A stretch of DNA of 25,185 nt from a virus: the IMG/VR virus record IMGVR_UViG_3300024224_000012, positions 1 to 25,185 of that record; one strand, written 5' to 3'. Shown piece by piece: positions 3,745-6,379 of the stretch (position 1 is its first letter; each line of letters opens with the position of its first letter). A program made the position numbers and the translations under genes. The notes beneath the pieces were generated by a model that was not told the DNA's origin, searched no databases, and worked only from the letters and a program-made list of their open reading frames with translations.

Positions 3745-4482
3745 TTGAGCGAGACTGAAACCGGCCCGCAGCCCGGAGGCGAAGCGCCTGAAGCTGCTGT
3801 GACTGAGACGGAGGCCACCGCGCCGGTCGATGCAGGCGCTGCGACTGAGACTGAGACGGAAACCAAGCCGACCGAGGAGCAGCCGAAGCCCTCACGCGCA
3901 GATCGGCGTTTCGCCGCCATGTCCGCGCGCCTGGCGGCCCAGGCTGCCGAGATCGAGGAGTTGCGCCGTGGGGGCCAGCAATCCCCCCCTGCTGCCCCTA
4001 CGGCGCTGCCACAGACGCCCGAGGAATTGCAGGCAGTCGTGCGTGCTGAGGCGTCCAAGCTGGCCGCAGAGGAGCGCACAAGGGAGCGCGTCATGGCGTT
4101 CCACAGGGCAGGGCAAGCGGCTCACTCCGACTGGAAGGAGCGCTGCGAGAACCTGCAGGCGATGGGCGTTGACAGGGAAATGTCGCACATCCTGGTCGAG
4201 ATGGACGACGGGGCGCGCGTTGCCGGCGCCCTGGCAGACGACCCGGAGGCGCTCGAGCGCATCGCGGGCATCAGGACCGAGCGAGGCCGGGCAATCGCGC
4301 TGGGCAAGTTCGCGGCGTCGTTGCCGGAAGCGCGGCCGGCACGCACCCCGGTATCGCGGGCGCCTGCTCCGATCCGGCCGGTGACCGGCGTCGCTAACCC
4401 GACATTCAACGAATACACCGCCTCAGCCGAGCAGTTGATGGACTACTACAGCAAGCAGGCGATGGAGCGGAGGCGGGCCTAA
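3745..4482 (+). CDS. Scaffolding protein, probable
   Basis: The product is 245 aa and starts with TTG 3745 directly after the upstream TGA; the next in-frame ATG is near residue 59, which would discard the acidic arm. Residues 1-50 are Glu/Thr/Pro-rich and disordered. A helical Ala/Arg/Glu segment follows (SRADRRFAAMSARLAAQAAEIEELRR) and another near 90-125. The C-terminus ends in a basic helix (MDYYSKQAMERRRA). An acidic disordered N-terminus, helical middle and short basic C-terminal helix between portal and coat are the hallmark of P22-like scaffold proteins, whose C-terminal basic helix binds coat during procapsid assembly. P22 gp8 is longer (303 aa). Identification is by architecture and synteny rather than a diagnostic motif. 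Confidence 0.8.
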   Translation: MSETETGPQPGGEAPEAAVTETEATAPVDAGAATETETETKPTEEQPKPSRADRRFAAMSARLAAQAAEIEELRRGGQQSPPAAPTALPQTPEELQAVVRAEASKLAAEERTRERVMAFHRAGQAAHSDWKERCENLQAMGVDREMSHILVEMDDGARVAGALADDPEALERIAGIRTERGRAIALGKFAASLPEARPARTPVSRAPAPIRPVTGVANPTFNEYTASAEQLMDYYSKQAMERRRA

Positions 4483-4700
4483 TGCGAATGCCGGAGCATC
4501 TGGACGGTAATCTTAGGGTGCCGGTCGGCAGTGGATGGGTTTACAACGCCTATACGGACACCGCATGGCCGCCCAGTGGATTGGTCCGCGTTCCTTCTCC
4601 CCAGGATGATGCGCGAGTGCCGTCAGAAGTTCGCGCAGGCATTGCTGCATACGTCGAAACGCTGGGAGCGAAGATAGCAGAGAAGAAGCGATGCCCTTGA
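4482..4700 (+). CDS. Small hypothetical protein
   Basis: The product is 72 aa. ATG 4482 overlaps the scaffold stop by 1 nt. The sequence has a compact aromatic N-terminal half (GSGWVYNAYTDTAWPPSGL) and a helical basic C-terminus (VRAGIAAYVETLGAKIAEKK). No family is recognised. Its last 10 nt overlap the start of the next gene, and its purine-rich end (AGAAGAAG near 4680-4687) doubles as the likely ribosome binding site of that gene. It lies between scaffold and coat, so an assembly role is possible but unsupported by any motif. Confidence 0.65.
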   Translation: MRMPEHLDGNLRVPVGSGWVYNAYTDTAWPPSGLVRVPSPQDDARVPSEVRAGIAAYVETLGAKIAEKKRCP

Positions 4701-5020
4701 AACGCAAGACTCGCCTGAAGCGCATCGATGCCAAACGTAAGCTAGTCATCGCGGCGCAACGTGATCTGGGTAAGCAGTTCAGTAAGCTGGAGCGCCTAAA
4801 GGAGCGTCTGGCGAGGCGCCTGGCAAAGCTAGAGACCAAGCGCGCGGAGATGCTGGGCTATTCGTTGACGGAGGACATGATTACGGCCAAGGCGCTCGTG
4901 CTTCTCCACCAGAAACAGAGCCTTGTCGGACGGGTCAACGAAGCTAATGCCAATATTGGCGATTCTCTCCGTTTTCGCATGCCTGTCGGCTACACCGTGA
5001 AAGCAGCGGACGCCGGCTAA
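4691..5020 (+). CDS. Basic helix fused to a copy of the coat N-terminus
   Basis: The product is 109 aa. Residues 1-55 are a very basic helix (MPLKRKTRLKRIDAKRK, then LERLKERLARRLAKLETKR), a possible nucleic-acid- or scaffold-binding coiled coil. Residues 63-102 align with coat residues 14-61: MITAKALV is identical, HQK and VG are shared, and IGDSLRFRMPVGYT matches IGTSLRIRLPVQYT, with an 8-residue gap. By my alignment 25 of 35 aligned positions are identical. In the identical MITAKALV block six of eight codons differ silently, which argues for old duplication kept by selection on the protein. The product stops where the coat fold would continue. It may be a minor capsid or assembly modulator next to coat; its function is unknown. 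Confidence 0.82.
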   Translation: MPLKRKTRLKRIDAKRKLVIAAQRDLGKQFSKLERLKERLARRLAKLETKRAEMLGYSLTEDMITAKALVLLHQKQSLVGRVNEANANIGDSLRFRMPVGYTVKAADAG

Positions 5021-5176: not shown

Positions 5177-6379
5177 ATGGCCACGAACGCCACGAACACC
5201 CTCCTCAATATCAACATGATCACGGCGAAAGCCCTGGTCATCCTTCACCAGAAGCTGAACTTCGTCGGGTCGATCAATCGCCAATACGACGACTCATTTG
5301 CCAACTCGGGCGCGAAGATCGGCACCTCGCTCCGCATCCGCCTGCCGGTGCAGTACACCACCGCAACCGGCGCGGCGCTCTCGATGCAGAACTCGGTGGA
5401 AACCAACACCACCCTCACCGTCAACACGCAGCGCCACGTCGATTTCTCGTTCAGCACCTCCGAGCTGACGATGAACATCGACGATTTCTCGGCCCGCTAC
5501 ATCGAGCCGGCCATTGCGGTGCTCGCGGCCAACATCGAAAACGACTGCATCTCCACCGTGATGCCGGCGGTGTGGAACCAGGTTAATGGCCAGGGCTCGG
5601 CGCAGACGTTCCGCAACGTGCTGCAGGCCCGCAAGCTTCTGCTGGACAACCTGACGCCGCAGAGCAAGCAGTGGCAGTTGCGCATCAACACGCAGGACAA
5701 CGTTGACATGGTGGACAGCCTGAAGGGTTTGTTCCAGCAGTCAACGCAGATCAGCCGCCAGTACACCGACGGCGTGATGGGCCTGTCGGCTGGGTTTGAG
5801 TGGGCAGAGAACACCTTTTTGACCACGTTCACGACCGGCGCGCGGAACACCGCCTACGTGTTGAACGGCGTTCCTGCCAACGGGGCCACGACGGCCGTTG
5901 TTGCGACCGGCGCGGGTGCGATGGTGGTCGGCGACGTGTTCACCATGGCCGGCGTCAATCGCGTGCATCCCGAGACCAAGGCCAATACCGGCGTCCTGCA
6001 GCAGTTCGTCGTCACTGCGGCCTATGCAGGCGGCGCTGGCACGATCTCGTTCGCCCCGGCGCTGAACTACACCGCGGGTGCGACGCAGAACGTCAATGCG
6101 GCTCCGGCGTCCAACGCGGCGCTGACGTTCGCAGGAACGCTCTCCACCGCCAGCGGTGTGTCGCTCGCCTATCACCCCGATGCGTTCACCTTCGCCACTG
6201 CCGACCTGGTCATGCCGGGTGGCGTGGACATGGCTGCGCGCGCCGTGAAGGACGGGATATCAATGCGTATCGTGCGTCAGTACGACATCAATCTTGACGT
6301 GCTGCCGTGTCGTATCGACGTTCTGTATGGCATGGCCCCGATCCGCCCGCAGCTCGCCGTCCGGTTGGCCGCAAACTGA
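5177..6379 (+). CDS. Major coat (capsid) protein, P22 gp5-like family
   Basis: The product is 400 aa. ATG 5177 is preferred over the upstream in-frame TTG 5159 because AAAGG at 5164-5168 is well spaced. Family signatures are NINMITAKALVILHQKLNFV (11-30), NRQYDDSF (34-41), KIGTSLRIRLPVQYT (47-61) and the E-L-T-M-x-I-D-D-F-x-x-R-Y-x-x-P motif at 96-111. The C-terminal part contains GDVFTMAGVNRVHPETKANT, as in relatives with an inserted beta domain. P22 coat is 430 aa. The protein forms the icosahedral shell with an HK97 fold. It follows scaffold and the coat-fragment gene, and its translation may be controlled by the structured leader. It is the best-supported capsid gene of the window. Confidence 0.93.
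   Translation: MATNATNTLLNINMITAKALVILHQKLNFVGSINRQYDDSFANSGAKIGTSLRIRLPVQYTTATGAALSMQNSVETNTTLTVNTQRHVDFSFSTSELTMNIDDFSARYIEPAIAVLAANIENDCISTVMPAVWNQVNGQGSAQTFRNVLQARKLLLDNLTPQSKQWQLRINTQDNVDMVDSLKGLFQQSTQISRQYTDGVMGLSAGFEWAENTFLTTFTTGARNTAYVLNGVPANGATTAVVATGAGAMVVGDVFTMAGVNRVHPETKANTGVLQQFVVTAAYAGGAGTISFAPALNYTAGATQNVNAAPASNAALTFAGTLSTASGVSLAYHPDAFTFATADLVMPGGVDMAARAVKDGISMRIVRQYDINLDVLPCRIDVLYGMAPIRPQLAVRLAAN

Follow-up and report, generated by a model that had tools for sequence, protein, structure and literature searches.

A coat N-arm homologue on an exchangeable small protein encoded upstream of a P22-type coat gene

The internal proteins of phage T4 are recruited into the head by an N-terminal capsid targeting sequence, which is removed by the head protease. 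In phage P22, the coat N-arm anchors the C-terminal hook of the scaffolding protein, through residues D14, E15, and E18 and also N4, and the hook touches residue R101 as well (PMC9965877). By our own reading, R101 falls where the spine-helix region (P-domain, 79-127) begins. Co-assembly with scaffold has been proposed for the P22 ejection proteins (PMC12005531). Finally, the Ccm protein of SaPIbov5, a capsid-protein homologue that has the complete HK97 fold, redirects the assembly of phi12 heads (PMC8569155).

The window considered here, an IMG/VR record of 25,185 bases, contains a gene that resembles each of these systems in part. Its host may be proteobacterial, since coats in bacterial genomes related to the window coat come mostly from Alphaproteobacteria (identity 60% or lower). 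Within the head cluster, between the scaffold and coat genes, lies a small ORF (Table 1) whose C-terminal domain is homologous to residues 10-67 of the P22-type coat (PF11651/phrog_283). Unlike the coat, this domain is short, stands alone behind an unrelated N-terminal half, and has part of a loop removed. The small protein contains none of the P, A, and I domains and so cannot form a shell subunit on its own. Ccm is likewise a coat homologue made beside a true coat, and an action on assembly is plausible for the small protein too. However, Ccm is satellite-encoded and has the full HK97 fold used for capsomer positions, whereas the window gene belongs to the phage's own head cluster, retains only the N-arm (or, in the second class described below, N-arm and P-domain pieces), and encodes 109 residues modelled as two helices and a disordered tail. 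The T4 internal proteins also are small and head-recruited, with a short targeting element and an exchangeable remainder; the putative targeting element here is instead homologous to coat and C-terminal, with no protease implicated.

Table 1. Coordinates of the features discussed (window positions, except for introns, which are given in the related phage named)
Feature	Location	Strand	Remarks
Scaffolding protein, phrog_8865	3745..4482	+	PHROG 2.4e-16; proposed docking partner
72-aa ORF	4482..4700	+	Follows scaffold gene; common to window and L009
Small ORF, 109 aa	4691..5020	+	ATG start; basic helix plus coat N-arm copy
N-terminal half, residues 1-58	4691..4864	+	Net charge +14; modelled as one helix
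Coat-derived domain, residues 59-108	4865..5014	+	N-arm helix and first E-loop strand
Cassette exchanged between window and L009	4701..5020		Flank identity 99.1% / 95.3%
Major coat protein, P22 type	5177..6379	+	PF11651 2.6e-29; phrog_283 2.2e-67
Mini-coat, 110 aa	137..469	+	N-arm and spine helix, no A or I domain; collinear weak matches, model and VIA-align ranking
Group I intron (Rfam RF00028)	L053 1409-2152		Splits coat within N-arm coding region
Group I intron (Rfam RF00028)	L067 4205-4956		Splits coat within N-arm coding region; insert encodes HNH endonuclease
Group I intron (Rfam RF00028)	L317 5212-5964		Splits coat within N-arm coding region
Group I intron (Rfam RF00028)	L031 4759-4957		In or beside coat gene
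Group I intron (Rfam RF00028)	L078 6061-6342		In or beside coat gene

The small protein and its coat-like domain

The ATG of the small ORF overlaps the stop codon of the preceding 72-aa ORF. Downstream, the coat gene most likely starts at ATG 5177 rather than at the mechanically assigned TTG 5159, because an AAAGG-like ribosome site lies just 5' of the ATG; the spacer between the two genes is then 156 nt. This spacer, together with the stop codon, rules out a frameshift or fusion joining the small ORF to coat.

The original prediction held that this ORF carries a copy of the coat N-terminus immediately upstream of coat, and the homology is secure. A blastp comparison with the window's own coat matches residues 59-108 to coat residues 10-67 (5204-5377), with 28/58 identities and one gap (E 2e-12); the gap represents eight residues missing from the coat loop between the N-arm helix and the E-loop strand. 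None of 2000 shuffles scored above 52 by Smith-Waterman, compared with 116 for the real pair, so the similarity is far above chance. A profile built from 25 coats recovered the small ORF from 42,445 ORFs at an i-E of 8.7e-10; the best value in the reversed-ORF control was 0.23. Only the C-terminal residues, about 50 in number, match this profile. The predicted count of identities fared less well: the 25 of 35 reported for residues 63-102 versus coat 14-61 became 26 in 40 aligned pairs on recounting.

The small ORF has no match to the curated Pfam coat profile PF11651, and so we do not classify it as a coat protein. Neither Pfam nor PHROGs yielded a family for it in profile searches, in keeping with the original remark that this architecture was not known as a described P22-like assembly factor. 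Annotated phages, searched as DNA and protein, held no relative apart from the coat of phage PAE2 (E 0.3), and solved structures gave no hit to a profile combining the small proteins with coat N-termini. A DNA-pattern search with RMPVGYT, a motif shared by the copies, gave real matches only in phages already found. We found no account of coat fragments as exchangeable fusion domains in the open-licence literature, and no family described as having this architecture.

In the AF2 model, the predicted basic, helical N-terminus forms a long helix (residues 2-55; block-mean pLDDT 83-96 across residues 1-50). A second helix (residues 61-84) matches the coat N-arm, and the tail, which corresponds to the first E-loop strand of the coat, is disordered.

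Exchange, selection, and origin of the copies

Three further contigs contain the small ORF, identical at the DNA level. The comparison with L009 is more instructive: the two genomes share 99.1% identity up to position 4701 and 95.3% from 5021 on, but between these points the ORF is substituted in its entirety, from start codon to stop codon, by one encoding an unrelated N-terminal half and its own coat N-arm domain. Thus, at a single locus, one element is conserved and the remainder is exchangeable. L040, L041, and L042 have a chimera at the same locus, in the order Arg/Trp-rich segment, coat spine-helix segment, second Arg/Trp-rich segment, and coat N-arm domain; since the spine-helix segment precedes the N-arm, the coat pieces are permuted. 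The proposed check for orthologues at this locus thus found related genes in other phages. In L043, a fourth front half joins the N-arm domain upstream of scaffold, and L064 has a shorter N-arm piece. The N-terminal halves in L009, L040-L042, and L043 are all unrelated to that of the window, and so the basic helix is not a constant feature of these proteins. Three coat segments persist across the chimeras: N-arm, first E-loop strand, and the beginning of the spine helix. In the window, L040-L042, and L043 copies, 8-9 residues are missing from the loop that joins the N-arm to the E-loop strand; the L009 copy retains them.

A clear N-arm chimera is present at about 8 of 84 distinct loci with recognizable scaffold and coat (window, L009, L040, L041, L042, L045, L259, and L043); a function present at so few is dispensable. 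The scaffold-coat interval is variable in general, and in many other phages contains unrelated small ORFs. (Proteins of about 555 residues with repeats lie there in L059, 2990-4660; L060, 1179-2849; and L064, 1993-3654.) Small ORFs of L013, L038, L044, and L309 contain coat-like strands that are weaker and shorter; by profile score, those of L038, L044, and L309 are not significant. The L038 example (4490-4768) has its strand (HQVDFSLSLSDLS) on a Lys/Ala-rich protein with a C-terminal KQAVAIAYSKKREAQRKK, a tail that recurs in several of these phages. The L013 example (468-971) contains the E-loop-strand-like sequence SLRIRLPISYT, identical to the window coat gene over 23/23 nt.

Are the copies maintained? 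For the version in L040, L041, and L042, dS is 0.26-0.31 (0.22-0.25 for their coats) and dN/dS is 0.28-0.33 (0.05-0.09 for coat). In neutral simulations, a non-synonymous share this low arose in 3, 0, and 0 of 1000 runs. These values of dN/dS identify a maintained protein, albeit one that evolves faster than coat. Selection as protein, as originally proposed, thus holds for this set. It does not extend directly to the window version: the contigs are identical at the DNA level, leaving zero polymorphism, and the dS between the copy and the window coat is saturated. Selection on this version is therefore suggested by analogy only.

The age of the window copy is a separate matter. As predicted, six of the eight codons in the MITAKALV block differ silently from those of the window's own coat. 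However, the conclusion that the copy is therefore old fails, because the coat of L018 carries the exact 24 nt of the copy. Over the N-arm block, DNA identity to the copy is 83% for the L034 coat and 72% for the window's own coat. Had the copy been captured from the coat of another phage, the silent differences would be accounted for. The copies lie close to no one coat in particular and could derive from several coats at several times; a 63-column tree does not separate a single origin from repeated capture (AU p 0.22).

Other phages have group I introns in the coat N-arm region, near the residues missing from the copies. An origin of the copies in intron or homing events nevertheless was not adopted: no intron or endonuclease gene adjoins the window copy, and the L009 copy is ungapped. 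In L086 (MW202674.1, 3962-5477), the coat annotation consists of two genes flanking a small ORF, perhaps reflecting an intron or other insert.

Mini-coats

The window encodes a second coat relative, just 5' of the portal gene, with weak collinear matches to the coat N-arm and spine helix. It groups with better-conserved mini-coats from L015, L043, L251, and L134, in which pieces of the N-arm and P-domain are kept and the A and I domains are absent; the C-terminal P-domain strand is additionally present in L015, L043, and L251. The L043 mini-coat resembles phrog_283 in two stretches (8.9e-7), and that of L251 lies directly 3' of the terminase gene. These two (L043, 942-1421; L251, 5983-6480) begin with twin-arginine-like sequences, RRGFLGG.. 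and RRGLLAG.., followed by LMPVSTLAFP. Annotated phages yielded no relatives for the two mini-coats searched.

The model of the window mini-coat has a mean pLDDT of 74 and pTM of 0.68. Foldseek alone found no match to it at E 0.001 or better. The best four VIA-align matches are the Sf6 coat (two entries), encapsulin, and the CUS-3 coat, all HK97-fold proteins. With Z at 3.7-4.5, and coats included in the model's alignment, this ranking is no more than supportive.

What the coat domain may do

An assembly-factor function is plausible for the small protein, and the gene is probably a means for variable small proteins to attach to the shell as it assembles. From these comparisons we infer scaffold docking, procapsid inclusion, and a cargo role. 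In the detailed version, which we favor tentatively at somewhat less than even chances, the C-terminal segment of about 50 residues mimics the coat N-arm and E-loop root and docks to the assembling head, with the N-terminal half as exchangeable cargo or effector. The mimic would most likely bind the coat-binding C-terminus of the scaffolding protein, and possibly neighboring coat too, and through it the small protein would join the procapsid during assembly. The cargo or effector would be the N-terminal half, a long basic helix in the window and Arg/Trp-rich or other helices in other phages, which would be exchanged as a cassette. Docking on scaffold or coat is suggested because the P22 hook binds the N-arm and the start of the spine, the very segments that the chimeras keep (L040-L042 retain the spine start in addition to the N-arm). 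Also in favor are the homology itself; the proposed co-assembly of the P22 ejection proteins with scaffold; the near-identical flanks around different N-halves, with the N-arm domain in both window and L009; the purifying selection on the L040/L041/L042 version; and the placement between scaffold and coat, with an overlapping start. Counting against it, the P22 contacts are acidic and not obviously conserved here (coat residues 1-61 have a net charge of +4), the stretch of the copy that matches the E-loop strand is modelled as disordered, clear N-arm chimeras are confined to about 8 of 84 loci, and the window version itself is invariant.

The same mimicry could serve interference rather than docking, with the domain competing with coat for scaffold or neighboring coat, and so slowing or redirecting the phage's own heads or poisoning those of co-infecting relatives. 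Satellites use capsid homologues in this way, as when Ccm occupies the pentamers of phi12-derived heads (PMC8569155); moreover, cassette exchange between close relatives fits phage-phage conflict, and mini-coats without A and I domains could cap growing shells. Yet a gene in the phage's own head cluster would hit its own coat first, and we regard this alternative as unlikely. Nor need every copy have a function. Coat pieces may land repeatedly in variable head-cluster ORFs through coat homology, leaving mostly functionless debris. The fragments indeed come in many sizes, some very short and near at the DNA level (23/23 nt in L013; 92-95% identity to other coats over 37-39 nt in L043); the interval is highly variable; and the copies have no single closest coat, nor can the tree demonstrate one origin for them. 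The dN/dS of the L040/L041/L042 set argues otherwise, as does the fact that both window-locus alleles, despite their different N-halves, keep the domain in frame almost to the C-terminus. Debris seems quite unlikely.

Conflict with the host offers another alternative. The bacterial immune protein CapRel directly senses a major capsid protein (PMC9712102), and a domain that mimics the sensed region might keep such a sensor silent. Cassette exchange would fit an arms race of this kind, but nothing connects coat fragments to a sensor, and the adjoining coat gene does not favor early expression. A decoy appears very unlikely.

The docking reading invites a broader and more doubtful generalization: that phages reuse pieces of their own coat (N-arm, E-loop strand, and spine helix) as portable docking modules for a changing set of small chimeras that ride into, or regulate, the procapsid, so that the coat itself would supply the head-targeting system. 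If docking is true, a coat N-arm of about 50 residues would be a natural tag into P22-type procapsids, with implications for what specifies scaffold-mediated loading and for applications of P22-like cages. Phages would then build accessory head proteins from parts of the coat and trade them as cassettes. The Pfam coat family matches none of the small chimeric ORFs, which standard annotation therefore overlooks; such cassettes would be an overlooked source of lineage-specific head functions.
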